A stretch of 64,000 nt of DNA from Natronorubrum sediminis (lineage in GTDB: Archaea; Halobacteriota; Halobacteria; Halobacteriales; Natrialbaceae), in contig NZ_FNWL01000004.1 in assembly GCF_900108095.1 (NCBI RefSeq), forward strand, positions 124,001 through 188,000, read 5' to 3'. Position 1 is the first letter of the stretch; each line of letters begins with the position of its first letter. The position numbers were made by a program, and so were the translations under genes. Below the pieces are notes generated by a model. The model searched no databases. It saw only the letters and a list, made by a program, of their open reading frames with translations, and was not told the origin of the DNA. Shown in pieces: positions 20,175 to 45,422 of this stretch.

Positions 20175-20307
20175 GTCGTCTCACTCGCACCATCTACCCA
20201 CCCACACCGTCGATAGTGCCAACTGAAACGGTTTACACACCGACCGCACAGCTATCGTGCGATCGAGTGTCCGCTGACTCGCAGTGGCACCTATACTTTC
20301 ACCCCGG

Positions 20308-20318
20308 TACGAGAACCC
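20308..20318 (+). promoter_or_regulatory. TATA-like element of hef
   Basis: The sequence GAACCCTTATTC, around 20311-20322, lies 26-37 bases before the chosen hef start at 20348, the usual distance for a leaderless transcript, and so supports that start over an in-frame one 44 codons earlier. Confidence 0.45.
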
Positions 20319-20347
20319 TTATTCACCGCGAGGATGAATCACCGGCA

Positions 20348-22816
20348 ATGGCGACAACGGACGAGGGTGCAGAGCCACCATCAATCGAGCACCCCCTCCT
20401 CGAGCCCGATTTTCTCGAGCGGCGACTCTACCAGTTGAAACTCGCGGGGACGGCCGCGAACGGCCACACGCTCGTCTGTCTCCCGACGGGACTCGGGAAG
20501 ACGACGGTCAGCCTGCTCGTGACGGCTCGCAGGCTCGAGGAAGTCGGCGGGAAATCGTTGATGCTCGCACCGACAAAACCGCTCGTCCAGCAACACGCGG
20601 ACTTTTACCGGGAAGCCCTCCAGATCCCAGACGAAGAGATCATCGTCTTCACGGGCGACGTCAGCCCGGACGATCGGGCGGCGACGTGGGAAGAAGCGAC
20701 GATCGTCATGGCCACCCCGCAGGTCATCGAAAACGACCTCGTCGGCAGCCGAATCTCGCTTTCCGACGTGACCCACATCACCTTCGACGAGTGCCACCGC
20801 GCGACCGGCGACTACGCCTACAACTACATCGCAGAACGCTACCATGCCGACGCGAATCAACCCCTCGTGACGGGCATGTCGGCCTCGCCCGGCGGCGACG
20901 AGGAGGCCATCCTCGAGGTCTGTGAGAACCTCGGCATCAGCGAGGTCGAGGTGATGACCGAAGAGGACGCCGACGTCTCCGAATTTACCCACGACACCGA
21001 CGTCGAGTGGGAACGAATCGGCCTCCCCGAGGACGTCCTCGAGATTCGCGACGCGTTGAACGAGGTGATCACGGATCGCCTCGAGAAACTCAAGGAACTC
21101 GGCGTTGCCTCCTCGACCCAACCCGACCAGTCCCAGAAGGACCTCAATCGAATGCGCGCGGAACTCCAGAAGTTGATCAACAACGACCAATCGGAGGGGT
21201 TCAAGGGAATGTCCGTCCACGCGGAGGTGATGAAACTCCGTCAGGCCGTCACGCTCGTCGAAACTCAGAGCGTCGAGGCCGTCCGGCGGTACTTCGATCG
21301 TCAGCGCAATCAAGCCAGATCCTCGGGGGCCTCGAAGGCCAGCCAACGCATGGTTTCGGATCCGCGCGTTCGCGAAGCTATACGACAGGCCGAGCGTTTC
21401 GACGAACTCCACCCCAAGTACCGCAAGACCCGGATGTTACTCGCCGAGACGCTTGGACTCGAGGGCGGCGAGCGCGTCATCGTCTTCACCGAATCTCGAG
21501 ACACGGCAGAGGCCCTGACGGACTTCCTCTCCGAGAGTTTCGACGCGAAGCGATTCGTCGGACAGGGCGACCGAGAGGGGTCGGACGGCATGACCCAGAA
21601 GCAACAACAGGAGGTGTTAGACCAGTTCCGCGGCGGCGAGTTCGAGGTGCTCGTCTCGACTTCCGTCGCCGAGGAGGGACTGGACGTGCCCGAAGTCGAC
21701 CTCGTGTTGTTCTACGAGCCGGTTCCGACGGCGATTCGCTCCATCCAGCGCAAGGGGCGAACGGGCCGCCAGTCCGAGGGCCGGGTCGTCGTCCTCATGG
21801 CCGAAGACACCCGCGACGAGGCGTACTTCTGGATCTCCCGGCGCCGCGAGAAGGAGATGGAGTCCGAACTCCGCGAACTCAAGGGCATGGCCGACACCCT
21901 CGCGGACGAACTCGACGACTCCCAGCAGGCGCTGTCAGACTTCGGCGGCGAAACCGCCGGCAGCGACGGCGCTGACGAACGCGACCCCGACGCAGTCGGC
22001 GACTCTTCCAGTGGAAATGAAGGGGGTTCGACAGCACCAGGATTACAGGACTTTTCGAAGGACGTGAACGACACCGGGGATGGGACAGAGAGCAACGACA
22101 CCGATTCGGAGTCGAACGCTGACGACGTCACAGTCCACGAACCACACGCCGAGGGCGAGACGATCGAAATCGTCGCCGACCAACGCGAGATGGACGCCAA
22201 CATCGCCCGTGACCTCTCGAGACGCGAAGAGATAGATATCCGCCTCGAGACGCTCGAGGTGGGCGACTACGTCTGTTCGGATCGCGTCGTTATCGAGCGA
22301 AAATCGGTGGCCGACTTCGTCGACTCGTTAGTCGGCGGCGAGCGCTCGATCTTCGAGCAGGTCGGCGCGATGGCCAGACACTACTCGCGACCGATCGTCC
22401 TCGTCGAGGGCGAGGGACTGTACGAGCAGCGGGATATTCACCCGAACGCGATTCGGGGCGCGCTCTCGAGTCTGGCCGTCGACTTCGGTGCGAGCGTGCT
22501 CCGGACCGAGAGTGAAGACGAGTCGACCGAACTGCTCGCAGTGCTCGCCGGTCGCGAACAACAAACGTCAGACCGCGAGGTCTCGGTCCACGGCGAGAAA
22601 GGGGCCAAGACGGTCGCCGAACAACAGGAGTACGTCGTCTCCTCGATCGCCGAAATCGGCCCCGTCACGGCCCGTTCGCTGCTCGAGGAGTTCGGCACCG
22701 TCGAAGCGGTGATGATCGCGAGCGAGGACGAGTTACAGGAAGCCGACGGCGTCGGGTCGGTTACGGCCGAGCGGATGCGAGAGGTTATCGGCACCGAGTA
22801 CACGGGATCGAAGTGA
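20348..22816 (+). CDS. hef: Hef helicase/nuclease (FANCM-XPF type)
   Basis: An 822-residue enzyme for stalled forks, uniting a superfamily 2 helicase and an XPF/ERCC4 nuclease. Helicase motifs are LPTGLGKTTVS (Walker A), APTKPLVQQH, TFDECHRA, SASPGG, then the second RecA domain with VIVFTESRDTAEAL and motif VI RSIQRKGRTGRQ. A disordered acidic linker (about residues 540-595) precedes the nuclease, whose active site is VADQRE, GDYVCSDRVVIERKSVADF and the dimerising region. The end holds helix-hairpin-helix repeats (SIAEIGPVTARSLLEEFGTV). The linker DNA carries a 19-base G-string motif at 22009-22027. The intact helicase and nuclease motifs suggest both activities. Confidence 0.95.
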   Translation: MATTDEGAEPPSIEHPLLEPDFLERRLYQLKLAGTAANGHTLVCLPTGLGKTTVSLLVTARRLEEVGGKSLMLAPTKPLVQQHADFYREALQIPDEEIIVFTGDVSPDDRAATWEEATIVMATPQVIENDLVGSRISLSDVTHITFDECHRATGDYAYNYIAERYHADANQPLVTGMSASPGGDEEAILEVCENLGISEVEVMTEEDADVSEFTHDTDVEWERIGLPEDVLEIRDALNEVITDRLEKLKELGVASSTQPDQSQKDLNRMRAELQKLINNDQSEGFKGMSVHAEVMKLRQAVTLVETQSVEAVRRYFDRQRNQARSSGASKASQRMVSDPRVREAIRQAERFDELHPKYRKTRMLLAETLGLEGGERVIVFTESRDTAEALTDFLSESFDAKRFVGQGDREGSDGMTQKQQQEVLDQFRGGEFEVLVSTSVAEEGLDVPEVDLVLFYEPVPTAIRSIQRKGRTGRQSEGRVVVLMAEDTRDEAYFWISRRREKEMESELRELKGMADTLADELDDSQQALSDFGGETAGSDGADERDPDAVGDSSSGNEGGSTAPGLQDFSKDVNDTGDGTESNDTDSESNADDVTVHEPHAEGETIEIVADQREMDANIARDLSRREEIDIRLETLEVGDYVCSDRVVIERKSVADFVDSLVGGERSIFEQVGAMARHYSRPIVLVEGEGLYEQRDIHPNAIRGALSSLAVDFGASVLRTESEDESTELLAVLAGREQQTSDREVSVHGEKGAKTVAEQQEYVVSSIAEIGPVTARSLLEEFGTVEAVMIASEDELQEADGVGSVTAERMREVIGTEYTGSK
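22009..22027 (+). repeat. Origin-box-like G-string motif inside hef linker
   Basis: The 19 bases CAGTGGAAATGAAGGGGGT are identical to those at 34643-34661 in cgi121 and match the core of the origin recognition boxes at 45.3-45.7 kb. In hef the frame reads Ser-Ser-Gly-Asn-Glu-Gly-Gly-Ser in the linker between helicase and nuclease. Confidence 0.7.
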
Positions 22817-22897
22817 GCGCACCGAACCCCACAATCGATAGTCGAAGACACTGAGCGACACCGCCCCAACACACTCACTACGGAACGTTCAGGACGT

Positions 22898-22908
22898 AGT
22901 TATATACC
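22898..22908 (+). promoter_or_regulatory. TATA box before usp leader
   Basis: GTTATATACC at about 22899-22908 is a strong TATA box. The next start codons are an ATG at 22939 (short leader frame) and the usp ATG at 22998, so the usp message probably has a leader of some 60-70 bases. Confidence 0.6.
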
Positions 22909-22938
22909 GGTCGGTCCCGTCAAAATGACGAGAGGATA

Positions 22939-23001
22939 ATGTGTCCCCGCATTGCTGCCGTCGCTCGTGTCCGTGCCGGATTTCGGCGTGATAGTCGATG
23001 A
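22939..23001 (+). CDS. Possible 20-residue leader frame overlapping usp start
   Basis: A frame of 20 codons, MCPRIAAVARVRAGFRRDSR, preceded by a GAGAGG element resembling a ribosome-binding site. Its stop overlaps the usp start codon as ATGA, an arrangement typical of translational coupling. The peptide is basic, unlike normal haloarchaeal proteins, so the peptide itself may not matter. It could be a regulatory upstream frame or chance. Confidence 0.35.
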   Translation: MCPRIAAVARVRAGFRRDSR

Positions 23002-23915
23002 CGACACCGCTCTTCGAACGCGTGTTGGTTCCAATCGCCGAACCGGAAGACGCGAAAGCGACGTGCGAGGCCGTCGTTCCCTACCTCGAGTCGTCGGGAG
23101 AGGTCGTCGTCGTGCACGTCATCGAGAAGACCGAGGGCGGACCCGACAAAGCGCCCAGAGAAGCCAGACAGGCGCAAGCAACAGAGATTTTCGCGCTCGC
23201 TCGTGAGCAATTCGGCGATGCCGGCTACGACGTGGAGACGGAACTTCGATACGGGCCGGACGTCGTCGACGAAATTCTCGCCACTGCGGCGGCCTTCGAC
23301 GTGACCGCGATTGCCTTCACACCCCGCCCAGGGGGTCGCTGGATCAAACTGCTCACCGGAAATCGCGCGAATCGGTTGACGCGAGAGAGCACGTACCCGA
23401 TTTTGATCGTTCCCCACTCCGAAAAAGAAACCCCCGAGATAACCGAGGCTACCGCGGCGACGACTGGCGATACCGACGGAACCGGCTACCGCGTACTCGT
23501 CCCGATCGACGGCACCGAGGAGGCCCTGTCGGCCGTTTCCCACGCCTGTCGCGCCTATCCGACCGCCGACGTGACCTGTCTCTACGTCCACGAGTCGGCG
23601 AGTACCGACGTCTACGCGTCGATGACCGGCGGCGACTCGAGTGGGGTCGACGACGAAGATCGCGAGTGGCAACAAGAAGTGACACAACGCTTCGAAGAAG
23701 CACAGGCCGTGGCCAACGACCACGGCGTCGAACTCGAGACCGTGACGTTCCCCGGGGCCGTTCCCGACGCCATCGTCACGTGCGCGGACGAACTCGGCGT
23801 CGACCTGATCGTCATGGCCACTCGAGGTCGAGAAGGCCTCAAGCAAAAGCTCCTCGGGAGCACCACCGAGACCGTCGTGCGCCGATCACCCGTTCCTGTC
23901 ACCGTCGTCCGATAG
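22998..23915 (+). CDS. Universal stress protein with two UspA domains
   Basis: A 305-residue cytosolic protein composed of two UspA units. The first runs from FERVLVPIAEPEDAKATCEA to about residue 135, ending YPILIVPHSEKET; the second from YRVLVPIDGTEEALSAVSHA to the end, where GVDLIVMATRGREGLKQKLLGSTTE and VVRRSPVPVTVVR form the usual nucleotide-binding loop (G-x-G-x9-G-S/T type). The first unit lacks a clear version of this loop, having TPRPGGRWIKLLTGN instead. Next on the same strand is an antiporter with a Usp-like tail, so the two may work together in salt or pH stress. Confidence 0.88.
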   Translation: MTTPLFERVLVPIAEPEDAKATCEAVVPYLESSGEVVVVHVIEKTEGGPDKAPREARQAQATEIFALAREQFGDAGYDVETELRYGPDVVDEILATAAAFDVTAIAFTPRPGGRWIKLLTGNRANRLTRESTYPILIVPHSEKETPEITEATAATTGDTDGTGYRVLVPIDGTEEALSAVSHACRAYPTADVTCLYVHESASTDVYASMTGGDSSGVDDEDREWQQEVTQRFEEAQAVANDHGVELETVTFPGAVPDAIVTCADELGVDLIVMATRGREGLKQKLLGSTTETVVRRSPVPVTVVR

Positions 23916-23981
23916 CACCGTGAGTAGCCACGGACGCTCGCGGACGAACGTGCATTTCGACTCACTTCCGTGTCGGTATCG

Positions 23982-26126
23982 ATGAACGAACTGTGCCCTC
24001 CGTCGCTGGTGAGTACGCATTCGGTGGTGGCTACGGACGGCGTCCGTCTCGAAGGATACGAGACGCTGTTGTCGACGGGTCCATCACTGACGCCGCCGTT
24101 CGACGATCCCGTCCTCATCTTCGGGCTCGCGATGGTGATCTTCCTCGTCGCCCCGCTCGTCCTCGAGCGCTATCGACTGCCGGGGATCATCGGGATCATC
24201 CTGATCGGTGCGGCGATCGGCCCCAACGGCGCGCACTTACTCGAACGAGACGCCACGATCGAGTTGCTCGGCGAGGTCGGCCTGATCTACCTGATGTTCA
24301 TCGCGGGCCTCGAGATTAACCTCACGCAGTTTCTCGAGTACAAGGATCGAAGCATCGTCTTCGGATTGCTGTCGTTCGTGATTCCACAGGCGGTCGGAAC
24401 GGTCGTCGGCGTCTCGTTGCTCGGATTGGAGCTTCCGGCGGCACTGTTGTTCGCCGCCATTTTCTCCTCGCACACGCTGCTCGCGTATCCGGTCGTCAAC
24501 CGACTCGGCATCGCGAACGACGAAGCGATGACCGCGACGATCGGCGGCACTATTCTGACGGACACGCTCGCGTTGCTCGTGCTCGCGATCGTCATCGCCG
24601 GCGTCGACGGGACGCTCGACGCCGCGTTCTGGACACAGCTGTCGGTCGGATTGACGCTGTTTTTCATCGGCGTCTGGGTACTCGTCCCTCGACTCGGTCG
24701 CTGGTTCTTTCGCATCCACAGCGAGGAGAGTTACTTCGAGTTTCTGTTCGTCATGGCCGTGTTGTTCATCTGTGCGTTTCTCGCCGAACTCGTCGGCGTC
24801 GAGCACATCATCGGGGCGTTCCTCGCCGGATTGACGCTCAACCGACTAATCCCAGAGTCGGGAACGCTGATGAATCGCATCGAGTTCGTCGGCAACGCGC
24901 TCTTCATCCCCTTCTTCCTCCTCTCGGTGGGGATGCTCGTCAACGTCGGCGTCGTGCTCGAGGGAGTCGACACGCTCGCACTCGCCGGTTCGCTTCTCGT
25001 CATGGTCTTCGTCACGAAATACGTCGCAGCGTGGGCCGCCGGCCGCGTCTACGGCTACGATCGGGATCAAGTCCTCGGGATGTTCGGCCTCTCCGTGGGG
25101 CAGGCCGCCGCTGCACTCGCGATCGTCCAGATCGGGTTCGACGCAGGCGTTCCGGGATTCGGCCAGGACATGATCAACGCCGTCGTCGTGATGATCCTCG
25201 TCGTGAGTCTGTTCAGTCCCGCGCTGGTCGAACGGGCCGGTGTCGCACTCGTCCGTGCTCGCGACCACGAAGCGTACGATCCAGGCGAGACGTCACAACG
25301 GATCCTCGTTCCCATCTCGAGAGAAACTGAATACGCGGAGTCGCTACTCGATCTCGCCGTCACGATCCGTAACGAACGCGCACACGAGCCGATTCACACG
25401 GTCACGGTGGTCCGCCCGGAACAGCGATCGCGGACCACGGCGAACGTCGCCGACGTCGAAACGCGTCTCGAGGACCTCGAGGCGTACACCGCCGGTGCCG
25501 AAGTTCCGATCGAACCCCACACTCGAGTCAACCACAACATTGCTTCGGGCATCGTTCGCTCGAGCGTCGAGAACCGGATTACGACGCTCGTCGTCGGCTG
25601 GGACGGGCAGAAAGCACGGACGCAGCAGGTGTTCGGCCACATCATCGATCAGGTGCTCGATCGAACCACGGAGTTGACGCTGGTCGGTCGACTCAGGGAG
25701 CCACTCAACACGACCCAGCGGATCGTCCTCGTGCTCCCGCCGGATATCCACCACAACGACGGGTTCTCCGAGTCGGTGCACACGGTGAAACGTATCTCGG
25801 CGCAAACCGGAGCCCCGATTCACGGCCTCGTCGTCGACGGAAATCCGAGCCACTTCGATCGAGTGACAACGCGCCTCGAGCCACCGACGTCGGCGACGTT
25901 CCACGCGGTCGACGGCTGGAACGAGTTGTTCGAAGAACTCCGCGACGAGACGCGATCGGACGACTTCCTCGTCTGCGTGAGCGCCCGGCGAAACGAAGTC
26001 GGCTGGCACAGCGAGTTACGGACCCTCCCGAACCGACTCGCAAGAGTGACAGATGCAAATTTCGTCGTGATGTACCCGGCGACGGAAGAACGAGCAGACG
26101 ACAGGCAGTTCCTCAGATTCCCCTGA
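23982..26126 (+). CDS. CPA2-type cation/proton antiporter with carboxy-terminal Usp-like domain
   Basis: A 714-residue protein. The first 400 residues hold about twelve helices of the monovalent cation:proton antiporter-2 (KefB/NapA-like) family, with [20 protein letters not shown], the [20 protein letters not shown] segment, [20 protein letters not shown] and the later [20 protein letters not shown]. The remaining 290 residues are soluble, start at about [20 protein letters not shown], and resemble Usp/adenine nucleotide-binding domains. It would exchange Na+ or K+ for protons and be gated by the cytosolic part. The start at 23982 was preferred over a GTG four codons earlier. It follows usp by 66 bases and is likely co-expressed. 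Confidence 0.88.
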
Positions 26127-26186
26127 ACGAGGTATTGTCACCCCGAGATCAGTTTCGACCGAAATGATTATTTCGATAACATCGGC

Positions 26187-27788
26187 ATGTGTGAGCACAT
26201 GGAGCGTCCCGTGCGGTCGCAACTCGAGACAGGGGCCCATCGAGTGCGACGGAACCTCGCAGACTCCGTTCGGATCGATACGCGGACGCTCGTGGTCTTT
26301 CGCGTCTTCGTCGGCCTCCTCATCATCGCCGACGTGTTCCTTCGCTCGCGAAACCTTTCCTTTTACTACACCGAGGACGGCGTCGTCCCCCAATCGATCG
26401 CGATGGAGTTGAGCGCAGATAACGCGTTCTCGTTCTATCACCTGACGACCGATCCGACGGTTATCGCCGCGCTGATGGGACTGCAAGTGCTGATCGCGAT
26501 TCAGCTGATCGTCGGCTACAAGACGCGTCTAGCGATGGTCCTCTCGTTCCTGTTCGTCGTCTCCTTAGATCACCACAACCCACTCGTCTTGAGCTACGCC
26601 GACACGCTCTTTCGGCTCCTGTTGTTCTGGGCCATCTTCCTCCCCCTCGGGGAACGCTGGTCGGTCGACGCCGTTCACGCCGACCGCGGGCCACGGGAGT
26701 CGGTCGCCGGTATCGCCTCCGCGTTGATCCTCTCGCAGATGGTGTACATGTACTTCCTCAACTGGTATCACAAGTCCCAGAGCGACCTGTGGACCGGCGG
26801 GGAGGCGACGCCGCTCGTCATGGGCCTCGACGACATGACCTTTCTCCTGACACCGTACATCCGGCAGTTCCCGGCGTTGCTCGAGTTGGGAACCCACCTC
26901 TGGTACTACATGCTCATGTTCTCCTGGCTGCTCATCGTCCTCGTCGGCCGGAAACGCATGTTCCTCGTCGCGCTGTTCGTCGGCGGGCACGTCTCGTTCA
27001 TCCTCACGGTCCGTATCGGCGCGTTCCCCTACGTCGCGATCGCCGGCCTGTTGTTGTTCCTCCAGGCGCAGTTCTGGACCGATCTGAAGCGAGTCGCCGA
27101 CCTTCTCGACGTCGACAGGTCTCGTCTCACCCGAACCAGACGAACGCTCGCCTCACACGCCGCGTCCGTGCCGAATCCGTGTCTCTCGAGTCCGTCCCTC
27201 GATCGGTTCCGGGGCAACGTCCACAGCGTCTTCCTCGGCATCGTCGTCGGCTCGCTCGTGTTGCTCTCGATCCTGTCGTACGTGCCCGTGGTCTCCGTCA
27301 TCGACGGCAACTCACCGCCCGAACAACAGGTCGACGATATCGCCTCGAGTTTCGGCGTCGACCAACCCGAGTGGAGCGTGTTCGCCCCCGAACCGCGGAC
27401 GACGGACCGATACTACGTCTTCCCGGCAGTGACCGAGGATGGCGAGTACATCGACGCCTACAACGAACGGGAGCTGACGTACGAACGGCCGTCCGACGAA
27501 CTCCAGACCCAATACGACACGTATCGCGAACGCTTCTACATGAACAGCGTCCGCAGCAGCGGGCTAAACGACAACGAGGTGCCAACGGCGCTCGCCGAAC
27601 ACCTCTGTTCGACGTGGGAAGACGATCACGGCGAAGAACTGACGCACATCAACATGTACGTCGTCAGCGAAGACATCACCTACGAGACCATCGACGACCA
27701 CGACGAGCGAGACAGGAACACGACGCACCTCTACGAACACGGCTGTGGCGACAACGAACCGAAAGAGATCCAGCCACCCGAGCTGTAG
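26187..27788 (+). CDS. HTTM domain membrane protein (paralogue 2)
   Basis: A 533-residue paralogue of the protein at 18522, with the same plan: cytoplasmic amino terminus, eight or so helices with RTLVVFRVFVGLLIIADVFL, FSFYHLTTDPTVIAALM, SLDHHNPLVLSYADTLFRLL and WYHKSQSDLWTGGEATP, and a soluble carboxy-terminal domain with FGVDQPEWSVFAPEPRTTD, YDTYRERFYMNSVRSSG and a closing YEHGCGDNEPK. One 84-base DNA segment is nearly identical in the two genes (see findings). A TATA-like AATGATTATTTCG lies about 25 bases upstream of the ATG. The function, possibly lipid or protein modification at the membrane as in the gamma-carboxylase relative, is unproven. Confidence 0.82.
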   Translation: MCEHMERPVRSQLETGAHRVRRNLADSVRIDTRTLVVFRVFVGLLIIADVFLRSRNLSFYYTEDGVVPQSIAMELSADNAFSFYHLTTDPTVIAALMGLQVLIAIQLIVGYKTRLAMVLSFLFVVSLDHHNPLVLSYADTLFRLLLFWAIFLPLGERWSVDAVHADRGPRESVAGIASALILSQMVYMYFLNWYHKSQSDLWTGGEATPLVMGLDDMTFLLTPYIRQFPALLELGTHLWYYMLMFSWLLIVLVGRKRMFLVALFVGGHVSFILTVRIGAFPYVAIAGLLLFLQAQFWTDLKRVADLLDVDRSRLTRTRRTLASHAASVPNPCLSSPSLDRFRGNVHSVFLGIVVGSLVLLSILSYVPVVSVIDGNSPPEQQVDDIASSFGVDQPEWSVFAPEPRTTDRYYVFPAVTEDGEYIDAYNERELTYERPSDELQTQYDTYRERFYMNSVRSSGLNDNEVPTALAEHLCSTWEDDHGEELTHINMYVVSEDITYETIDDHDERDRNTTHLYEHGCGDNEPKEIQPPEL

Positions 27789-27846
27789 CGTGGGTCGCTC
27801 TCGAGTCCGAACTTCGTTCTCAACCCGTATCGAACCCGTTTCAGCC

Positions 27847-28644
27847 CTACCGGAGCGTCTCGAGCGCCTCGCTCGCCTCGCGTGCGGCCTCGAGACAGGC
27901 CGTCGCGTGGCGTGGGTCGTCCGTTTCGGCCGCCTTCGCGGCGAACTTCTCGAGCGCCCGGACGAGCGAGGCTCGAGCGGCCTCGCGGTCGCCGTCGACC
28001 GCCGGTGCAGACGGTGTCTCGTCGCGACGAGGCGACCGAGATTCGTCCTCGACACCGACATCGGCCGTCGGTTGCCGAGCGCTCGGCGATCGCTGGTTCG
28101 GTGTCGATAGCTGCTCGGGAGTTACGGATCGGTTCGGTGCCGATTCGGCAGCGCTCGAGGATGGTTGGGTGGATTCTCTCGAAGGGGTCTGCTCGGCTGC
28201 ATTCTGAGTGGGTCGCTCGGCTGCGTTCGACGACGCCCCCTCGTTTCCACTCGAGTTCGGTCGTTCAGTGGCAGTCCCGTCGGGCTGGCCAGCAGTATTC
28301 GAGGCCGCCGCTTCGTTTCGTCGGGACTCACGCTCACTCGAGTCAGCGGTGGAGTCTGACGCATCACCAGCGTCAGCGGTAGCGTTAGCGTCCGATTCGG
28401 TCGCCGGCTGCGCCTCGAGGTCCGTCCCTTCGACCGCGTCGGGATTGCCGTGACAACTCGGACAGAACGTGGTTCCGTTTTGCTGGAACAGCGGGTCGCC
28501 ACAGGTCCCACAGTGGGCGTTCGTCATCGTCGCCCCTTTGAGCAGCAGATCGCTCATTCGCTGGGTCGCCTCGCGCTCTTTGGCGTCGCGTTCGTACTTC
28601 TCTCGAAGTTTCTCGCGTTCGGCTTCCTTGTCGAAGTCGCTCAT
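27847..28644 (-). CDS. Sssca1/autoantigen p27-type zinc-ribbon protein
   Basis: A 265-residue protein. The amino terminus has a helical charged segment (FDKEAEREKLREKYERDAKE), the conserved MSDLLLKGATMTNAHCGTCG, and a treble-clef zinc ribbon of two Cys pairs (CGTCGDPLFQQNGTTFCPSC), the signature of the Sjogren syndrome/scleroderma autoantigen 1 (p27) family. Residues about 75-215 are Ser, Glu, Asp and Thr rich and probably disordered. The last 45 residues form a helix (ASLVRALEKFAAKAAETDDP). The linker DNA carries a G-string motif (28236-28253). Function is unknown; the archaeal family is widespread. Confidence 0.8.
   Translation of the reverse strand: MSDFDKEAEREKLREKYERDAKEREATQRMSDLLLKGATMTNAHCGTCGDPLFQQNGTTFCPSCHGNPDAVEGTDLEAQPATESDANATADAGDASDSTADSSERESRRNEAAASNTAGQPDGTATERPNSSGNEGASSNAAERPTQNAAEQTPSRESTQPSSSAAESAPNRSVTPEQLSTPNQRSPSARQPTADVGVEDESRSPRRDETPSAPAVDGDREAARASLVRALEKFAAKAAETDDPRHATACLEAAREASEALETLR
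28236..28253 (-). repeat. Origin-box-like G-string motif inside the zinc-ribbon gene
   Basis: On the minus strand the bases are CGAGTGGAAACGAGGGGG, one of the motif copies described in findings. They code for Ser-Ser-Gly-Asn-Glu-Gly-Ala in the disordered linker, the same frame and nearly the same peptide as in hef and cgi121. Confidence 0.6.
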
Positions 28645-28723
28645 AGCCGACAGAAAGCGCCCGACCGTCGAAAAAGCTGCGGAGACGCGCGCACTCCGTC
28701 AAGCGTCGACGGTGGCGTGTCAC

Positions 28724-29149
28724 TCACTCTATCCGGCGGTGCATCCCCTTAGAACCCGGGCGGACGGGTTCGTAACCGAATCGCTCGTAGAAGTCGTCGA
28801 CGTCGGCGACGAGGTTGACGTACGCGCCAGCCGGCGCCTCGGCCTCGAGATGGGCCTCGAGACGGTCCATGATTCCAGTTCCGAGCCCTTTCCCCTGATG
28901 GTCCGGATGGACCGCCATATCCGAAATCTGGTAGACTGCACCGCCGTCGCCGACGAGTCGCCCCATGCCAATGACCTCACCGGACGGTTCGTGAACCGCG
29001 ATCACGCCGTAAATCGTATTCGGGAGGCCGCGTTCGATTGCCTCGAGCGAACGCGGACCCATGCCAGCGACCTCGCGCAAGTGGGCGAACGTCTCGGGAT
29101 CGGGCAGTTCATCGCGGAGTACGTACGCGTCCGATTCGTCGACAGTCAT
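28724..29149 (-). CDS. GNAT family N-acetyltransferase
   Basis: A 141-residue acetyl-CoA-dependent acetyltransferase. The acetyl-CoA pyrophosphate loop is AVHPDHQGKGLGTGIMDRLE (motif A, Q/R-x-x-G-x-G type), preceded by the beta strand GVIAVHEPSGEVIGMGRLVG and followed by NLVADVDDFYERFGYEPVRP and the closing GMHRRIE. The substrate is unknown; small GNATs of this kind act on amino groups of small molecules or proteins. The gene is separated by 79 bases from the zinc-ribbon gene and by 51 from the LOG-like gene, on the same strand as both. Confidence 0.88.
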   Translation of the reverse strand: MTVDESDAYVLRDELPDPETFAHLREVAGMGPRSLEAIERGLPNTIYGVIAVHEPSGEVIGMGRLVGDGGAVYQISDMAVHPDHQGKGLGTGIMDRLEAHLEAEAPAGAYVNLVADVDDFYERFGYEPVRPGSKGMHRRIE

Positions 29150-29200
29150 ACCGGAACAACCCGACGGAGACCGAAGGCGATACCGATTCGCCGGCCGCGT

Positions 29201-29677
29201 TCACCGCGATTGGGCGACCGCGGCTTCGATCGCATCGACGGCTTCGGCAGGCGTCTCGACGGTCTCGAGGCCGAGGTCACGGTCGGCCTCGAATGGCGAG
29301 AAATCGTGCGTCTCGAGGCCGACGATCGGTCGGTCGTAGATGCCGGCGAAGCCGATCTCCGAGAGCGTGCCGACGCCACCCGCGAGCGCGATCACCGCGT
29401 CACCGTTCAACGGAACGAGCGCGTTGCGGGCGTGGCCCAGTCCGGTCGCGATGGCGATATCGACGAACTCGTTCGCGTCCTCGCGGTGCTCGCCGGGTAA
29501 AATGCCGATGGTCGTTCCTCCTGCATCGTTCGCACCACGGCAGACGGCCGCCATCGTTCCGCCACGACCGCCACAGACGACCGTGTGGCCTCGAGTCGCA
29601 AGCTCGCGACCGACGGCTTCGGCTCGATTCGCCGCGGTCTCGCTGATCGTTCCGCCGCCGATAACACTGACTCGCAT
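29201..29677 (-). CDS. LOG/TIGR00725-like Rossmann-fold protein
   Basis: A 158-residue protein with a Rossmann-like nucleotide-binding fold. It begins [20 protein letters not shown] and has [20 protein letters not shown] and the PGG-x-GT-x3-E-like [20 protein letters not shown], matching the SLOG superfamily (TIGR00725, LOG/lysine decarboxylase-like). Members bind or hydrolyse nucleotide derivatives; the cytokinin enzyme role of LOG proteins does not necessarily apply here. The start at 29677 was chosen because the fold needs its first strand directly after Met; an upstream in-frame start would add 69 residues that do not resemble haloarchaeal protein. Confidence 0.78.
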
Positions 29678-29945
29678 AGCCGAGACGTCGCGGGCAGCGA
29701 CCATGATCGGTTCGATACGAGCGTCTCTCCGCGGAGACGAACCGTTCCGCATAGCCGACGGTATCCACTCGAGGACGGTTGCAATCGATTCACTCTCGAG
29801 CGTGACCGCGGCTGGTCGGCGGTTCGACGCCGGTAGCTGCCCGATCGCGAGTGGTTCGACAGGTGTCGATCTAGTTCTCGTCAAATCGCTCGAGAGAAGG
29901 GGTTTCGACGGATTTAACGCACGGGGTGGCCGATGTTTACGTGGT

Positions 29946-30860
29946 ATGACGAAAGTTAGCGTGGTCGGCGCGGCTGGAACGGTTGGAGCCGCAGCGGGCT
30001 ACAACATCGCACTTCGGGATATCGCCGACGAACTCGTCTTCGTGGACATTCCGGATCAAGAGGACACGACGGTCGGACAGGCTGCGGACACCAACCACGG
30101 TGCAGCCTACGACTCGAACACGACGATCCGTCAGGGAGGCTACGAGGACACCGAGGGCTCGGACGTCGTCGTCATCACGGCCGGCATTCCGCGCCAGCCC
30201 GGCCAGACACGAATCGACCTCGCGGGCGACAACGCACCGATTATGGAGGATATCGGTTCCTCCATCGCGGAGTACAACGACGACTTCATCACCGTCACAA
30301 CCTCGAACCCCGTCGACCTGCTCAACCGCCACCTCTACGAGGTCGGCGACCGCGCACGCGAGCAGGTGGTCGGCTTCGGCGGCCGACTCGACTCCGCTCG
30401 ATTCCGCTACGTCATCTCCCAGCGCTACGACGCCCCCGTTCAGAACGTCGACGCGACCATCCTCGGCGAGCACGGCGACGCCCAAGTCCCCGTCTTCTCG
30501 AAAGTCCGCGTCGACGGACAGGACCGCGAGTTCGACGAGAACGAGAAAGAAGAACTGCTCGAGGAACTCCAGACCTCCGCGATGAACGTCATCGAGAAGA
30601 AAGGCGCGACGCAGTGGGGGCCAGCGACCGGCGTCGGACACACCGTCGAGGCCATCCTGCGCGACACCGGCGAAGTGCTTCCGTGCAGCGTCCCCCTCGA
30701 GGGCGAGTTCGGCCACGAGGACACCGCATTCGGCGTCCCGGCCAAACTCGGCTCCGACGGCGTCGAAGAGATCGTCGAGTGGGACCTCTCGGAGTTCGAG
30801 CGCGACCAACTCGGCGAAGCCGCCGAGAAGCTCTCGGATCAGTACGACAAAATCTCGTAA
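29946..30860 (+). CDS. mdh: Malate dehydrogenase, NAD-dependent
   Basis: A 304-residue malate dehydrogenase of the LDH-like (tetrameric) haloarchaeal type, which interconverts malate and oxaloacetate. Visible are the NAD loop [20 protein letters not shown], the acidic residue D at the end of strand two (VFVDIPDQ), the substrate loop with [18 protein letters not shown], the [11 protein letters not shown] segment, the arginine region [15 protein letters not shown] and the catalytic His in [13 protein letters not shown]. The upstream frame extends further, but the Met at 29946 gives the standard start, and a TATA-like TTTAACG lies about 35 bases upstream. The protein is very acidic, as in Haloarcula. 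Confidence 0.96.
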
Positions 30861-30861
30861 C

Positions 30862-30897
30862 GCGACCGCGACCGCGACCGATACCGTCATTTTTTCA
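30862..30897 (+). terminator. GACCGC repeats and T-tract after mdh
   Basis: Just after the mdh stop come four tandem CGACCG-like units and then ATTTTTTC at 30889-30896. The T run marks a likely archaeal terminator. Confidence 0.5.
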
Positions 30898-30945
30898 CCG
30901 CATCCGCGAACAGTCAGCGAAGGTCGACGGATAAGAGCGCTGCGT

Positions 30946-31191
30946 TCACGGAATCAACTGCTCGCCATCGTCGTCGTAGATCGTGATTGCGTCGACGGGA
31001 CAGGTTCGAGCCGCGAACTTCGCGTCGAGTTCCGCGCCTTCGGGGACATCGCGGACGAAGATGCCGTCTTCGACCTCCTCGCTGTCCTCGAGAACCGCTT
31101 TGCCTTTCGTCTTGTCCTCCTCGAAGGCGTCCCACTCGGCGACGCACTGATACATGCCGATACAGGTCTCCTCGTCGAATTCGACTTTCAT
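30946..31191 (-). CDS. Small ferredoxin, single-cluster type
   Basis: An 81-residue ferredoxin. The cluster ligands are arranged as C-x5-C (TCIGMYQC) near residue 10 and CP (RTCPVDAITIYDDDGEQLIP) near residue 65. With only three cysteines in these positions, a [3Fe-4S] or a [4Fe-4S] cluster with a non-cysteine ligand is likely, as in small monocluster ferredoxins of cytochrome P450 systems. The protein is acidic, suiting high salt. The start at 31191 (MKVEF) was preferred over an earlier in-frame Met because homologues begin here. It is not in an operon with any obvious partner enzyme. Confidence 0.85.
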   Translation of the reverse strand: MKVEFDEETCIGMYQCVAEWDAFEEDKTKGKAVLEDSEEVEDGIFVRDVPEGAELDAKFAARTCPVDAITIYDDDGEQLIP

Positions 31192-31282
31192 GATCGATGG
31201 TTGGGCCGATTGTCGTAAATCGTTAGCGGTCCGCGAGAATCCTTCCTCGTGATCTCTCTGCACCTGGAAACGAGATATCGAC

Positions 31283-31867
31283 TTATCGACGGACGTAGTA
31301 GACGGCGATTCCCGGAACCGTCATGATCGCGAACACGGAGAGTAGCGTGAGTTCGTACCCGAAAACCACGTGCGAATCGCCCAGCGAATCGGTCCACGCA
31401 CCGGCCGCGAGCAGCGTCGTGCCGTAACACCCGGAGGCGAGTCCCCGCGGGCCGCCGACGACCGACAACAATCGTTGCCAGCGAGACGTTTCGACCCACG
31501 GCATCGCGCCGTAGACCGTCGATCCCACCCGCCGAAAGACGCCGCCGACTGCGGGAAGCGCCACCAGTGCCGGGAGTCCAATCCCAAACCCGAACGTTCC
31601 GAGGAGGCCGTATCCCGCCGCGCGTTTGAGTGTGCCGAGTAGGTACCGAGCGAAGGCCACTGCGACGGCTGCGCCGACCAACACGAGGCAGGCCTCGAGT
31701 ACCGAAATCGACGTTTCCAGCGCCTCGAGTCGGCGGTCGAGCGTCCCGGTGAACATCCCGAGCGTGAGCACGACGAGCGCGGTCCCGACGAGGAGTTTAC
31801 CGCTTCGACCCCGCGGCTTCTTCGTCCGCAGCGGCGACGACTCGAGCGCGCGGGCGAGTGTCGACAT
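31283..31867 (-). CDS. Unknown membrane protein
   Basis: A 194-residue protein with about five hydrophobic helices (for example [57 protein letters not shown] and [19 protein letters not shown]), a basic amino-terminal stretch and a carboxy-terminal Arg pair. No enzymatic motif is recognisable and I do not recognise the family. Codon use is typical of the neighbourhood. It is divergent from hel308, with 116 bases between starts. Confidence 0.6.
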
Positions 31868-31983
31868 GCGTGAGTGTCAACCCGAGTGGAACAAAAACGC
31901 CGCGACTCGTCGACGTCACGGGTGGACCGACGGACGGGCCTCGAGACGACAGTTTAAACCACGGGACGCGCCAAAGACGGGTA

Positions 31984-34335
31984 ATGAATCTCGAGGAGCT
32001 GTCGGGGCTCCCACCCGGTGCCACGGACCACTTTCGGCAAGAGGGCATCGAGGAGCTCTACCCGCCACAGGCCGAGGCGGTCGACGCCGGCGCGACCGAC
32101 GGCGAGAACCTCGTCGCTGCCGTGCCAACTGCGAGTGGCAAGACCATGATCGCCGCGCTCGCGATGCTCTCGGCGGTCGAACGCGGCGGGAAAGCGCTGT
32201 ACATCGTCCCGTTGCGAGCGCTCGCCAGCGAGAAACGAGACGAGTTCGAGGCGTACGAACAGTTTGGCATCACGACCGGCGTCACGACGGGCAACTACGA
32301 GAGCACCGACGACTGGCTCGCGACGAAGGATATCATCGTCGCGACGAGCGAAAAGGTCGACTCACTCGTCCGAAACGGGGCTGGCTGGCTCTCCGAACTC
32401 ACCTGCGTCGTCAGCGACGAAGTGCACCTGATCGACGACCGAAATCGAGGGCCCACACTCGAGGTGACCCTCGCGAAACTCCAACAGCTCAATCCCGCGA
32501 TGCAAACCGTCGCGCTCTCTGCAACCGTCGGGAACGCCGACGAAATCGCCGACTGGCTCGACGCCTCCCTCGTCGACAGCGACTGGCGACCGATCGACCT
32601 GGAGATGGGCGTCCACTACGGGAACGCGCTCAACTTCGACGACGGCTCGACGCGAGAGGTTCCCGTCGAGGGCAGCGAAAAACAGGAAGCTGCGCTCGTG
32701 CGAGACATCCTCCAAGAAGGTGGCTCCTCGCTCGTCTTCGTCAGCTCCCGGCGCAACGCCGAGGCCGCCGCGAGCAGATTGGGTGGCGTCTCGGGTCCGG
32801 AGCTATCGGGCGAGGAGCGCACCGAACTGGCCGAACTCGCCGCGGAGATTCGCGACGACAGCGACACCGAGACAAGCAAGGATCTGGCCGACTGCGTCGA
32901 GCGCGGTGCAGCATTTCACCACGCCGGACTCTCGAGCACCCAGCGCTCGCTCGTCGAGGACGCCTTTCGCGACCGGCTGTTGAAGGTCATCTCCGCGACG
33001 CCGACCCTCGCCGCCGGGGTGAACACGCCCGCCCGTCGCGTGATCGTCCGCGACTGGCGACGCTTCGATCCGAGTGCGGGCGGGATGGCTCCCCTGGACG
33101 TCCTCGAGGTCCACCAGATGATGGGACGAGCCGGACGTCCCGGTCTCGACCCCTACGGTGAAGCCGTCTTGCTCGCCAAGAGCCACGACGAGAGCCAAGA
33201 GCTGTTCGACCGCTACATCTGGGCCGATCCGGAGGCCGTCCGATCGAAACTCGCGGCTGAACCCGCACTCCGGACGCACGTCCTCGCCACCATCGCCTCC
33301 GGCTTCGCCCGCACACGGGGCGGACTCCTCGAGTTCCTCGAGGCCACCCTCTACGCGAGTCAGTCGAGCGAAGCCGGGCGACTCGAGAGCGTCACCGACG
33401 AAGTGCTGAGCTACCTCGAGCGAAACGACTTCATCGAGCGGGACGGCAAAACCGAACAAACGAACGACGACGCCGGGGCATTCACCTCGGCAGCCGACCT
33501 CGCGGACCAACAGCGCTCGAAGAACGAACAGACGCTCGAGGCAACCAGCCTCGGTCACACCGTCTCCCGACTCTACCTCGATCCGATGAGTGCAGCGGAG
33601 ATCGTCCACGGTCTCGAGGGAGCCGAGGAGCGGCCAACGGCACTCGGCCTGTACCAACTCGTCTCGCGGACACCCGACATGTACGAACTCTACTTGCGCT
33701 CGGGCGAGGACGAGAAATTCGGCGAGTTGTTCTACGAGCGCGAGCGCGAACTGCTCGGTGACGCCCCAAGCGAGTTCGAAGAAGGACGCTTCGAAGACTG
33801 GTTGGCCGCCCTCAAAACAGGGACGCTGCTCGAGGACTGGGCCGAAGAGGCCGACGAGGAGACGATCACCGAACGCTACAAGATCGGACCCGGCGACCTC
33901 CGCGGGAAGGTCGATACCGCCGAGTGGCTGTTGGGTGCCGCCGAGTCCCTGGCCGCCGAAATCGACAGCGAGTGGACCGTCGCCGTCCGCGAAGCCCGCG
34001 CACGCGTCGAACACGGCGTCGGCGAGGAGTTGCTCGAACTCGTTTCGGTCGGCGGCGTCGGTCGGAAACGGGCGCGCCGACTCTACGAAGCCGGGGTCGA
34101 GGAGCCAGCCGACCTTCGCAGTGCCGAGAAAGAGGTCATCCTCGGAGCGCTAAAGGGTGAGAAAACGGCCGAGAACATCCTCGAGAACGCCGGTCGAGAG
34201 AATCCGTCGATGGACGGCGTCGAACCGGCTAGTGGTGTCGTAAGCGCGACGAGCGACGGGTCGAAAGCAGGCACAAGTGACGAGACGAACGAAGAAACGG
34301 CGGACGACAACCAATCCAGTCTGGGTGATTTCTAG
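31984..34335 (+). CDS. hel308: Hel308 (Hjm) DNA helicase
   Basis: A 783-residue superfamily 2 helicase that unwinds lagging-strand and forked structures at stalled replication forks. Motifs are VPTASGKT (Walker A, about 48-54), [17 protein letters not shown] (motif II, about 144-151), ALSATVGN (III), [14 protein letters not shown], the later [18 protein letters not shown] and the motif [13 protein letters not shown]. The ratchet domain and a helix-hairpin-helix segment ([20 protein letters not shown]) end the conserved region, followed by a disordered acidic tail. The ATG at 31984 is preceded by a TATA-like TTTAAACC about 30 bases upstream. The stop overlaps the start of cgi121 by one base, so the two are coupled. 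Confidence 0.95.
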
Positions 34336-34883
34336 TGGAACTCCTCGAGTGTACACTGACGGTCGACGACCTCGACGAATTCGTCGCCCAACTGGGTCGA
34401 ATCGGTGACCGACACGACGTGACGATCCAAGCCTTCGATGCGCGCTACGTCGTCGACCGCTCACACCTCGAGCACGCGCAAAAATTGGCAGACCGCGCCA
34501 TCGCTCGTGGGGACAACATCGCCAGAGATCGAGCAGTCGAAATCCTGCTCTACGCCGCCGGTCGACGACAGATCAACCGTGCACTCGAGATGGGAATCGA
34601 CGTCGGCGAAACGGACGCCATCATCCTGATCGACGCCGATTGCAGTGGAAATGAAGGGGGTAACGAAGACGAGAGTGCTGGGGCACTCGAACGGGAGACG
34701 GCTGCCCGGCAGGAACTGCTGACGTTAGACGCCGTCGAACCCTCCGGATCGACGCTCGAGTCCGTCGACACCGAAACGGTCTGTTCGTTTTACGACATCA
34801 CCGACACCGAGCGGGCGACAACCGACGCGTCGCTTTCGGACCTCGTCCGCGAACGCGTGGCCTTACTCGAGGTCGAAAAGTGA
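34335..34883 (+). CDS. cgi121: KEOPS complex subunit Cgi121
   Basis: A 182-residue Cgi121 protein, a subunit of the KEOPS complex that helps make the t6A modification of tRNA by binding tRNA. Visible are LTVDDLDEFVAQLGRIGDR, the FDARYVVDRSHLEHAQKLAD stretch and the conserved ILLYAAGRRQINRALEMGID. An acidic insertion after about residue 100 (CSGNEGGNEDESAGALE) is encoded by a 19-base G-string motif also found in hef. The start is a GTG overlapping the hel308 stop by one base. The end, SFYDITDTERATTD and a helix, agrees with the family. Confidence 0.9.
   Translation: MELLECTLTVDDLDEFVAQLGRIGDRHDVTIQAFDARYVVDRSHLEHAQKLADRAIARGDNIARDRAVEILLYAAGRRQINRALEMGIDVGETDAIILIDADCSGNEGGNEDESAGALERETAARQELLTLDAVEPSGSTLESVDTETVCSFYDITDTERATTDASLSDLVRERVALLEVEK
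34643..34661 (+). repeat. Origin-box-like G-string motif inside cgi121
   Basis: CAGTGGAAATGAAGGGGGT, identical over 19 bases to the copy in hef and read in the same frame (Cys-Ser-Gly-Asn-Glu-Gly-Gly-Asn). Confidence 0.7.
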
Positions 34884-37064: not shown

Positions 37065-38108
37065 ATGCAAGCAGCCCGTCTCCACGAGTATACCGACGAC
37101 ATGAGCCAGGGACTCGAGATCGACGACATCGACCGCCCAACGGTCGATCGGTCGGATGAAGTCGTCGTCGACGTCGAAGGCGCGGGATGGTGCCAGACTG
37201 ACAACCACATTATCGAAGGAATGTGGACCGACTACGCCCCGCAGGACCTGCCGATGACGCTCGGTCACGAGAACGCAGGAATCGTCGCCGAAACCGGCGA
37301 CGAAGTGACGCTCGTCGAGGAGGGTGACCCGGTCATCTGTCACCCCGTCCAAACGTGTGGCATCTGTCGCCCCTGTCGACTCGGCGAGGACATGTACTGT
37401 GAGAACAGCGCGTTCAACGGCCTCACAACCGACGGCGGATTCGCTGAGTCCCTGCTGACCAACGAGCGGGCAGTCATCCCACTACCGGAGGGCGTCGATC
37501 CGACCGAAATCGCCCCCCACGCGGACGCAGGGATTACGGCCTACCACGCCGCGAAGAAGGCAGTCCGAGAACTCAACCCCGGCGAGACGGCAGTCGTCAT
37601 CGGCATCGGTGGACTCGGTCACATCGGACTCCAGTGTCTCGACACGATGAGCGCCGCGGATATCGTCGCCGTCGACCGCAAAGACGAGGCGCTCGAATTA
37701 GCCGCCAACCTCGGTGCGCACCACACCGTCAACTCGAGCGAGGAGGAACTCTCGAGCAGAGTGATGGACCTGACCGACGACGAAGGGGCCCAACAAGTGC
37801 TCGATTTCGTCGGCGCGGACGAAACCACTGCAACTGCACCTGAAATGGTCGCCGCGGGCGGCGATCACCACGTCGTCGGCTACGGCGGCAACATCCACGA
37901 ACCGTGTCAGGCCCTCGTCAATGGCGAGTTCTCGTTCAAAGGGACGCTCGTCGGTCGCTACACCGAACTACAGGAACTCGTCTCGCTCGTCGATCGGGGA
38001 GACGTCGAATTGCACACCGAACGCCACGACCTCGAGGAGATCAACACCGTCGCGGAACGACTCGAGCACGGCGAGATCGAAGGTCGTGCGGTCATCCTCC
38101 CACCCTGA
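37065..38108 (+). CDS. Zinc-dependent alcohol dehydrogenase, NAD(P)-type
   Basis: A 347-residue medium-chain dehydrogenase. Catalytic zinc ligands are Cys in AGWCQTDNHIIEG, His-Glu in GHENAGIVAETGDEV and Cys/Asp-position residues later; the structural-zinc cluster is CHPVQTCGICRPCRLGEDMY. The nucleotide fold is VVIGIGGLGHIGLQCLDTMS, with the acidic residue in DRKDEALELA favouring NAD. The product most resembles alcohol dehydrogenases encoded with propane monooxygenase in Gordonia and Rhodococcus, which oxidise the 2-propanol formed. The start at 37065 follows an in-frame earlier GTG that would add five residues. It has its own TATA box and is divergent from the amidohydrolase. Confidence 0.9.
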   Translation: MQAARLHEYTDDMSQGLEIDDIDRPTVDRSDEVVVDVEGAGWCQTDNHIIEGMWTDYAPQDLPMTLGHENAGIVAETGDEVTLVEEGDPVICHPVQTCGICRPCRLGEDMYCENSAFNGLTTDGGFAESLLTNERAVIPLPEGVDPTEIAPHADAGITAYHAAKKAVRELNPGETAVVIGIGGLGHIGLQCLDTMSAADIVAVDRKDEALELAANLGAHHTVNSSEEELSSRVMDLTDDEGAQQVLDFVGADETTATAPEMVAAGGDHHVVGYGGNIHEPCQALVNGEFSFKGTLVGRYTELQELVSLVDRGDVELHTERHDLEEINTVAERLEHGEIEGRAVILPP

Positions 38109-38199
38109 TCCGAGTAGGGCGGAGAGATCGCGTCGTTCGGACCAAATCGTGCTCTCGAAGGGACAGTATTCTCTTGACCGTCCCCGCTGTATACACTGT

Positions 38200-39625: not shown

Positions 39626-39643
39626 CCCCTTCGTTTCAACTGG
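39626..39643 (-). repeat. Origin-box-like G-string motif, intergenic
   Basis: Minus-strand CCAGTTGAAACGAAGGGG, 50-70 bases from tRNA-Gln. One of the dispersed copies described in findings. Confidence 0.65.
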
Positions 39644-39767: not shown

Positions 39768-39996
39768 GCGATCACCCGTCAGGTATCGCTTCTAACGGTG
39801 TAGAGGATAGTAGTGGGCATCCGTATTAAGGTGTTACGAACTCGGGTGAGCCAGACAGGAGAGAGCCACCGACCGTCGCCGTCGTCGGGTCACCGCCCGA
39901 GCAACGCCGACATCGCCCGTCTTTCGAATGACGGCAAATTCGGCCACGCTGGGGAGAATCGACATTCCTTTTCCGTTCACCTGCGCAGGTTCGCGC

Positions 39997-40587
39997 ATGT
40001 ACATCGGACGATTCGTCGTCGTCGGTCCCGACGTCGGTGCCTACCGCGTCTCATCACGATCCTTCCCGAACCGAAAGATTTCGACTCGAGACGACGCACT
40101 CACCGTCGGTCCCACGGCGGATGCACCCGAAACGGACAACCCGTACGTCTCGTATAATTGTCTCCGACTCGTCGACACCCCGACGGGCGAAACGGCCGCC
40201 TTCGGAAACGGCTCACACGTCGACCCAATCGCAGAGAAGCTCGAACTGGGCTATCCCGCTCGAGACGCCCTCGCCGAGAGTCTCCTCGCACTCGACTACG
40301 AGAAAGACGACTACGATACGCCCCGAATCGGGGCGACGATCGGTGCCGACGGCGAGGCCCTGATCGGAACGGTCCGAAAAGACGCCCTGTTCGTCGAGAC
40401 CGTCGAAGAGCCGACGCTCGTCGCGACCTACGAGAAGAACGCACCCGACTCGTTCGAGTTCGAGGCAACCACCGCGACAGAAGCAGCAACCGACGCTTAC
40501 GACCTCGAGTTCGAACACGCAGTCTGTGCAGCGGGCGTCGCCCGAACCGACAACGGCTTCGAGACGGCACTCGAGAACGGCGACTGA
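39997..40587 (+). CDS. purO: IMP cyclohydrolase, archaeal PurO type
   Basis: A 196-residue archaeal IMP cyclohydrolase (PurO), which closes the ring of FAICAR to IMP in the last step of purine synthesis. The start [20 protein letters not shown] and the following FPNRKIST are typical, as is [20 protein letters not shown], then [20 protein letters not shown]. The start at 39997 was chosen because homologues begin MYIGRF; earlier in-frame residues are not conserved. It is monocistronic, upstream of a T-tract terminator at 40599-40605 and a phosphoesterase gene. Confidence 0.93.
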
Positions 40588-44643: not shown

Positions 44644-44657
44644 CCGTCGTACACATA

Positions 44658-45336: not shown

Positions 45337-45422
45337 AACGCATCGAAGGAGGGTGGGGGTCTCGAGAGGTCTTCTAAACAGGAGGGATTTAAGTGGTTGG
45401 GTGAGAAACTCGGTCCGTAGCA

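Follow-up and report, generated by a model that had tools for sequence, protein, structure and literature searches.

Putative oriC1-type origin recognition boxes recur in gene linkers and intergenic regions around a haloarchaeal replication origin

Introduction

Why should genes as unrelated as those encoding Hef, Cgi121 and a p27-type zinc-ribbon protein carry the same short DNA motif and read it in the same frame? The question was raised by a 64,000-nucleotide stretch of the Natronorubrum sediminis genome (contig NZ_FNWL01000004.1, positions 124,001 to 188,000; hereafter the window, numbered from its first base), in which hef and cgi121 share the 19 identical bases CAGTGGAAATGAAGGGGGT (22009-22027 and 34643-34661, plus strand) and the hef, cgi121 and p27 copies all read Ser-Gly-Asn-Glu-Gly-(Gly/Ala). 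A first-pass annotation of the window had reported both coincidences, which we confirm, and the names that it gave to these genes and to orc1 are borne out by Pfam and NCBIfam (Hef, NF010337; Cgi121, NF011465; p27, PF06677; Orc1, NF001625). It had proposed either insertions of a small DNA element or sites held for binding. We report here the identity of the motif, its clustering around the origin oriC1 and a DNA-level constraint on the copies in Hef, Cgi121 and DP1, the small subunit of PolD. The copies are very probably oriC1-type origin recognition boxes (ORBs) held at the DNA level. With moderate confidence, we favor as the best overall explanation that the motif is such an ORB and that, besides the inverted pair of oriC1, single satellite ORBs within about 100 kb would form a sink for the Orc1 initiator that delays re-firing.

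The repeated motif and the origin oriC1

Matches to AGTGGAAAYGARGGGG with up to three mismatches number 14 in the window against 1.21 expected, and none of 100 shuffles reached 14. The same motif is found on both sides of the oriC1 core, where two inverted ORBs lie upstream of orc1 at a distance of 318 bp from each other (Table 1). The 18-bp pattern CNASNNGAAAYGARGGGG fits this pair together with the Hef, p27 and Orc1 copies, and the Cgi121 copy with one mismatch. Haloarchaeal origins are described as inverted ORBs that end in a G-string and lie beside an orc/cdc6 gene (PMC3528665, PMC3936714; these and the papers named below are cited from the excerpts available). Since the motif pattern forms an inverted pair upstream of orc1 and is followed there by the halophile G-string, as in published haloarchaeal oriC1, the motif of Hef, Cgi121 and p27 is, judged from its sequence, an oriC1-type ORB, i.e., a predicted Orc1/Cdc6 site. 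The boxes are linked to an orc1/cdc6 gene, recognized by its NF001625 and TIGR02928 matches, and cluster around orc1 in relatives. To judge by the adjacent ORB pair, the orc1 of the window probably belongs to the oriC1 branch. One Orc monomer binds one ORB (PMC7776575, in the excerpt available), and by analogy with the known family Orc1 would bind each of the ORBs described here.

Within the window, the layout of a replication origin, with inverted ORBs around an A+T-rich intergenic region beside orc/cdc6, fits 45319-45654 only; the satellites are mostly single and partly coding. By eye, the G-rich stretches just inside each ORB of the oriC1 core resemble an inverted repeat, and they look like the G-rich inverted-repeat enhancer of the Haloarcula hispanica oriC1. 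That the motif flanks a replication origin in the same window had been missed in the first-pass annotation.

Distribution of the boxes around the origin

Exact sites were scanned for with CNASNNGAAAYGARGGGG in the 3.78-Mb genome of origin (G000, whose contig C4 includes the window) and in a first set of 31 genomes (this one and 30 relatives; 19 of the same family and 12 of other families), the reversed pattern serving as control, and also in a second set of 29 further family genomes. All nine exact sites of the N. sediminis genome lie within C4:89,881-197,619, i.e., within 108 kb, while the reversed control gave none. Up to one mismatch, 13 of 18 sites fall inside the same interval. Up to two mismatches, 69 sites are found for 23 reversed controls; weak sites are therefore not claimed.

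The 31 genomes contain 145 exact sites and none of the control. In the 19 family genomes, 113 sites were recorded: 56 within 5 kb of orc1, 31 between 5 and 100 kb away, 15 beyond 100 kb and 11 on other contigs. If a site counts as distal when it is on another contig or over 5 kb away from orc1, 31 of 57 thus lie at 5-100 kb where 4.7% would be expected (binomial p ~2.6e-26; this and the next p-value are guides only, as they treat sites of related genomes as independent). Five of nine distal sites in the 12 genomes of other families also lie at 5-100 kb. The second set yielded 131 sites. Here the origin was defined as an exact -/+ pair 250-450 bp apart, which 18 of the 29 genomes possess, the other 11 being excluded from the distance count; of the 46 distal sites, 31 fall in the 5-100 kb range, where 2.15 would be expected (p ~1.5e-30). 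These counts score as far the sites on other contigs of broken assemblies, as well as those of G143 and G187, whose origin lies at a contig end and which may be near across the circular join. The orientation of the satellites relative to oriC1 is mixed (N. sediminis genome, by eye).

Some of the satellites are intergenic. The ORB on the purO side has homologous open reading frames (ORFs) on both flanks in 13 family genomes (18 sites compared), and another lies at C4:89,881, just upstream of a KH-domain gene. One box about 52 kb from orc1 in G013 is overlapped by a 542-aa open frame ending in a DUF5786 domain (L077:1418-3043), a frame that may be noncoding there.

Two classes of box

The G-string was measured as the number of G in the 8 bases following the box, for 106 fetched sites of the 145. 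Thirty-six of the 106 have at least 6 G, and none of these is at 5-100 kb from orc1, so the extended halophile G-string is absent from the satellites of that range. The G-rich sites are boxes of oriC1 type close to orc1, among them a second copy on C11 of G005; the exceptions are G012:1,777,040, which is far, and a site of G018 at ~4 kb. The split is imperfect: a score of 5 occurs in four members of oriC1 pairs (G006, G009, G010, G021) and also at G005:48,677 in cgi121 and at two G017 sites more than 1 Mb away. In H. hispanica, mutating either G-string abolished the function of a minimal oriC1 (PMC3936714, in the excerpt available). Satellites lacking the extended G-string that is needed at the H. 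hispanica oriC1 are therefore likely to bind Orc1 without firing.

Table 1. Origin, initiator gene and boxes in the window.
Feature	Position	Strand	Context
Satellite ORB CCAGTGGAAATGAAGGGG	22008-22025	+	hef linker (gene 20216-22816); reads Ser-Ser-Gly-Asn-Glu-Gly-Gly
Satellite ORB CGAGTGGAAACGAGGGGG	28236-28253	-	p27-type zinc-ribbon gene (27847-28644, minus); reads Ser-Ser-Gly-Asn-Glu-Gly-Ala
Satellite ORB GCAGTGGAAATGAAGGGG, 1 mismatch to the 18-bp pattern	34642-34659	+	cgi121 (34335-34883); reads Cys-Ser-Gly-Asn-Glu-Gly-Gly
Intergenic satellite ORB CCAGTTGAAACGAAGGGG	39626-39643	-	Between OYE-type oxidoreductase gene (37921-39555) and purO, IMP cyclohydrolase (39928-40587)
orc1 (Orc1/Cdc6 initiator), with acidic insertion	42838-44682	-	NF001625, TIGR02928, PF09079, PF22703; likely ATG 13 codons inside the ORF
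Satellite ORB CCAGCTGAAACGAAGGGG	43867-43884	-	Orc1 linker; reads Pro-Ala-Glu-Thr-Lys-Gly; also present in G001
Degenerate ORB, 2 mismatches (high background at that level)	44658-44675	-	Just upstream of the likely Orc1 ATG
oriC1 left ORB with extended G-string GGGGTGGGGGG	45319-45336	-	Box plus G-string, CCACCTGAAACGAAGGGG(TGGGGGG)
oriC1 core between the two ORBs	45337-45636	.	~48% A+T in a window of 61% G+C
oriC1 right ORB with extended G-string GGGGTGGGGG	45637-45654	+	Box plus G-string, CCAGTCGAAACGAAGGGG(TGGGGG)
ORB-like site CCAGTTGAAATGAAGGTG, 1 mismatch	48668-48685	+	Covered by no ORF of at least 100 aa
ORB-like site CGACTCGAAGTGAAGGGG, 1 mismatch	53719-53736	-	
Satellite ORB CGAGTAGAAACGAGGGGG	54553-54570	-	G001 has one at a similar distance from orc1 (9.8 kb)

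Boxes within genes

Orthologues were fetched by protein irrespective of the motif (30 loci each for Cgi121, DP1 and Hef; 29 genomes for p27). In Hef, the motif is found at an aligned linker position in 16 of the 19 family genomes (3 exact, 11 with one and 2 with two mismatches); of 11 genomes outside it, one (G029) carries a two-mismatch site, elsewhere in the gene. Of 10 same-genus Cgi121 genes, 7 contain the core, 5 of them as exact matches to the 18-bp pattern; none of 20 others does. The core lies within a linker of variable length, the insertion being missing in G006 and G007. The p27 copy is exact in N. sediminis and G001 only, among 21 orthologues scanned, and a 29-row alignment (two rows blank at the site) has the peptide in these same two genomes only. 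The Orc1 linker copy, said in the first-pass annotation to be in another frame, does read differently (Table 1) and is a member of the same ORB set.

The DP1 gene (NF003116) lies outside the window, at C4:197,230-198,855. Thirteen of 30 orthologues have an exact sense ORB; 12 of these read PVETKG and the other PVETRG. A usable ORF was lacking at one of the 30 loci. Just upstream of the sense box, an antisense ORB-like stretch, CCC-NNN-GTT-TC(A/G)-ACT-GGA, is present in 15 of 30, and the DP1 linker often holds an inverted, partly degenerate box pair with starts 58 bp apart. The pair of N. sediminis is at C4:197544-197619 (L044), one box having one mismatch. A stricter inverted pair is rare: of 194 genomes scanned in the order, 11 have it, belonging to four families, with a control of 0; its location in DP1 was not checked for G046, G078, G090, G141 and G193. 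In 16 of the 19 family genomes, DP1 follows closely downstream of orc1, with a gap of up to ~2.3 kb. In N. sediminis and G001 it lies ~28 kb from orc1 on the opposite side, as if the origin region had been rearranged.

Is it the peptide or the DNA that is kept? Column-wise synonymous diversity is weakly informative here, preferred codons being fixed too, and a codon anomaly was used instead, i.e., the mean surprisal of codons given the amino acid in 7-codon windows of aligned family genes trimmed to coding sequence (19 rows for Hef and DP1, 10 same-genus rows for Cgi121). The SSGNEGG window of Hef ranks 1 of 780 and the SGNEGG window of Cgi121 1 of 165. Among the 496 windows of DP1, the top five all overlap the two boxes, PSVSTGD ranking 5 and PVETKGS 14. 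Rare codons are kept at the boxes: GGA in 17/17 for DP1 and 16/16 for Hef, ACT in 17/18, GTT in 16/17, CCA in 17/18 and AGT in 15/18. In DP1, GAA (19/19) and GGG (18/18) are likewise fixed, and the base left free by the ORB varies (GTT, GTC or GTG in PVETKG). Given the peptide, an ORB would arise by chance with a probability of 0.0075, 0.0018 and 0.0001 per independent gene. The codon anomaly, with rare codons fixed and the free base varying, therefore points to a constraint at the DNA level in Hef, Cgi121 and DP1. The refuting case named in the first-pass annotation, an identical peptide in different codons, was looked for in the 30 Cgi121 orthologues: all seven with GNEG have GGA and GGG for the two Gly, and G004 has a related GSGGTEGG with GGC instead of GGG. 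The earlier suggestion that DNA rather than protein is conserved is thus supported by the codon test, p27 excepted, which gave no signal (rank 132 of 261, from two rows and a run that included bases 5' of start codons). The alternative of sites held for binding fits with the oriC1-type identity of the box, its enrichment at 5-100 kb from the origin in the family and the codon constraint in Hef, Cgi121 and DP1.

A six-frame translation of four ORB variants accounts for the shared reading. The SGNEG frame is open only if the base before GA is not T, and it gives Gly rather than Arg only with GGA. The other sense frames are PVETKG-like (used in DP1 and Orc1), Lys/Arg-rich or stop-containing, and the antisense frames are mostly hydrophobic except the PFVSTG-like one (used in DP1). 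The genes share the SGNEG reading because an ORB fits a linker only in frames free of stops and of basic and hydrophobic residues; the few readings permitted in acidic halophile linkers are our own explanation for the identity between Hef and Cgi121.

Proposed role of the satellites and its alternatives

Single satellite ORBs are concentrated within ~100 kb of oriC1, some intergenic and some in the linkers of Hef, Cgi121, p27, Orc1 and DP1 (the latter a pair). Less certainly, they would bind Orc1 yet be unable to fire, presumably for want of an extended G-string and of the paired arrangement seen at oriC1. Being linked to the origin, such a sink would double soon after initiation; the doubled satellites would lower free Orc1 and re-firing would be delayed, as has been proposed for the ORB cluster by cdc6E in H. 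hispanica. We put titration as the main role of the satellites at slightly less than even chances.

Several observations weigh against this proposal, besides the dependence among related genomes noted for the p-values. Fifteen of the 113 family sites are more than 100 kb from orc1 and 11 are on other contigs, and the DP1 copy of G012 has been kept at ~193 kb from orc1. Some ten single sites might not suffice for titration of Orc1. No Hef motif within two mismatches was found in 3 of 19 family genomes (G012, G013, G016), and GAAA has become GAAG or GAAC in 12 of the 19, changing Asn to Ser or Thr, and the altered sites might be bound less well or not at all. The Cgi121 and p27 copies have a narrow distribution (7 of 10 same-genus genomes and two genomes, respectively), and 18 cgi121 loci of a named collection are without an exact ORB, two of them having one with one mismatch; several of these loci are short, with flanks of at most 10 kb. 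The exact sense box is missing in 17 of 30 DP1 orthologues. In G003, G005, G006, G015 and G016 it was lost by a change of the Lys codon to Gly or Glu, the surrounding peptide being kept, and the antisense box is exact in G010 only; some DP1 copies thus carry changes that may weaken binding.

A first alternative is that ORB-bound Orc1 marks or folds the origin region for segregation or for the handling of sister origins, much as ParB-parS organizes the region around bacterial oriC. The geometry does resemble that of parS fields, with single sites of mixed orientation on both sides of oriC1 over tens of kb and tolerated within genes. The persistence of the distant DP1 copy of G012 is a point against it. 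We consider this candidate role rather unlikely.

Control of local transcription, by Orc1 or a paralogue acting at ORBs on host or downstream genes (orc1, DP1, hef, purO), appears unlikely. Exact ORBs at the 5' end of orc1 in six relatives (G002, G006, G008, G009, G014 and G017; L049, L053, L057, L066, L085 and L093) speak for it, and an ORB just upstream of the Orc1 start codon suggests possible autoregulation of orc1. Both purO and the KH-domain gene are preceded by intergenic copies, and several host genes act in replication or repair. Moreover, an archaeal Orc1-2 is a damage-response regulator (PMC9738581, in the excerpt available). However, the Hef, Cgi121 and DP1 copies lie within coding sequence, and the clustering of the sites tracks the distance to oriC1. 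Cgi121 and p27 are not known to act in replication.

That SGNEGG and PVETKG would be short linear motifs kept for protein reasons, the DNA likeness being a by-product, is disfavored and very improbable. Hef of the family does keep SSG-x-EG beside a conserved PGL-x-x-F segment, which we take to be perhaps a PCNA-binding motif, and the PVET-x-G peptide persists in five family DP1 genes in which the Lys codon and the box have changed. Yet one DNA motif gives three unrelated peptides in different genes (SGNEGG, PVETKG and the antisense PxVSTG), rare codons are kept, an ORB is improbable given the peptides (see above), and intergenic copies carry no peptide at all. Insertions of a small mobile element tolerated in linkers are very improbable: the motif-bearing Cgi121 and p27 linkers are indeed longer than in many orthologues, but the sites concentrate in the oriC1 region, in Hef (16 of 19 family genomes), in DP1 and on the purO side they occupy aligned positions in different genera, the Cgi121 copy recurs in most same-genus genomes within its variable-length linker, and the sequence shared between sites ends, by eye, with the box, target duplications not having been searched for.

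Comparison with known systems

ORBs are already known, as is an ORB titration cluster. Like the ORBs of haloarchaeal oriC1, the satellites share the pattern of the oriC1 pair, its region and the link to an oriC1-type orc1; unlike them, they are mostly single, up to tens of kb away and partly in genes, and the extended G-string is missing from those at 5-100 kb. The excerpts available place archaeal initiator sites at origins and, for Haloarcula, also in a cluster next to cdc6E. This cluster, oriC2D of H. hispanica, exerts a negative control on oriC2, likely by titration of Cdc6E (PMC3936714, PMC4010727, in the same excerpts). The satellites resemble what these excerpts describe in being additional initiator sites outside the origin, and the DP1 pair lies downstream of orc1 as oriC2D lies downstream of cdc6E. 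While oriC2D holds 11 ORBs in one 722-bp intergenic region, the present sites are of oriC1 type, partly coding and dispersed over ~100 kb rather than densely clustered. It is possible, by analogy, that they work like an oriC2D-type titration locus. A literature search that covered few subscription papers found no description of dispersed, intragenic or scattered ORBs, nor of Orc1 ChIP-seq of them.

In bacteria, clusters of DnaA boxes surround the oriC of Bacillus. Like datA (as cited in the excerpts of PMC3936714 and PMC4010727), the satellites are initiator sites outside the origin that would be duplicated after initiation. In contrast with both, the initiator is another one and the sites are single, dispersed and written into reading frames. 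ParB-parS fields also consist of short single sites spread around the origin, some in genes; the present sites are initiator boxes instead, and we know of no ParB partner for them.

We propose tentatively, and with more doubt than for titration, that in haloarchaea the ~100 kb around oriC1 form a dedicated initiator-binding domain, in which a field of functional sites lies in the reading frames of unrelated genes and is kept by codon-level selection, as a replication counter or an archaeal counterpart of the parS region. If so, this conserved and partly dual-coded field of single sites would be an archaeal titration or domain-marking system like the bacterial DnaA-site or parS fields. The limits on re-initiation in haloarchaea would then become directly testable, as synonymous changes remove single sites and leave the proteins unaltered. 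Some 'conserved linker peptides' of haloarchaeal proteins may, by the same token, be by-products of DNA sites.

Origin organization in two relatives

In G012, long distances separate orc1, DP1 and an ORB that has the extended G-string (C1:238011, 432596, 1777040, 1777157), and origin and orc1 may have separated. In G005, the oriC1-orc1-DP1 block occurs twice, on contigs C9 and C11, which may be a real duplication or an assembly overlap.

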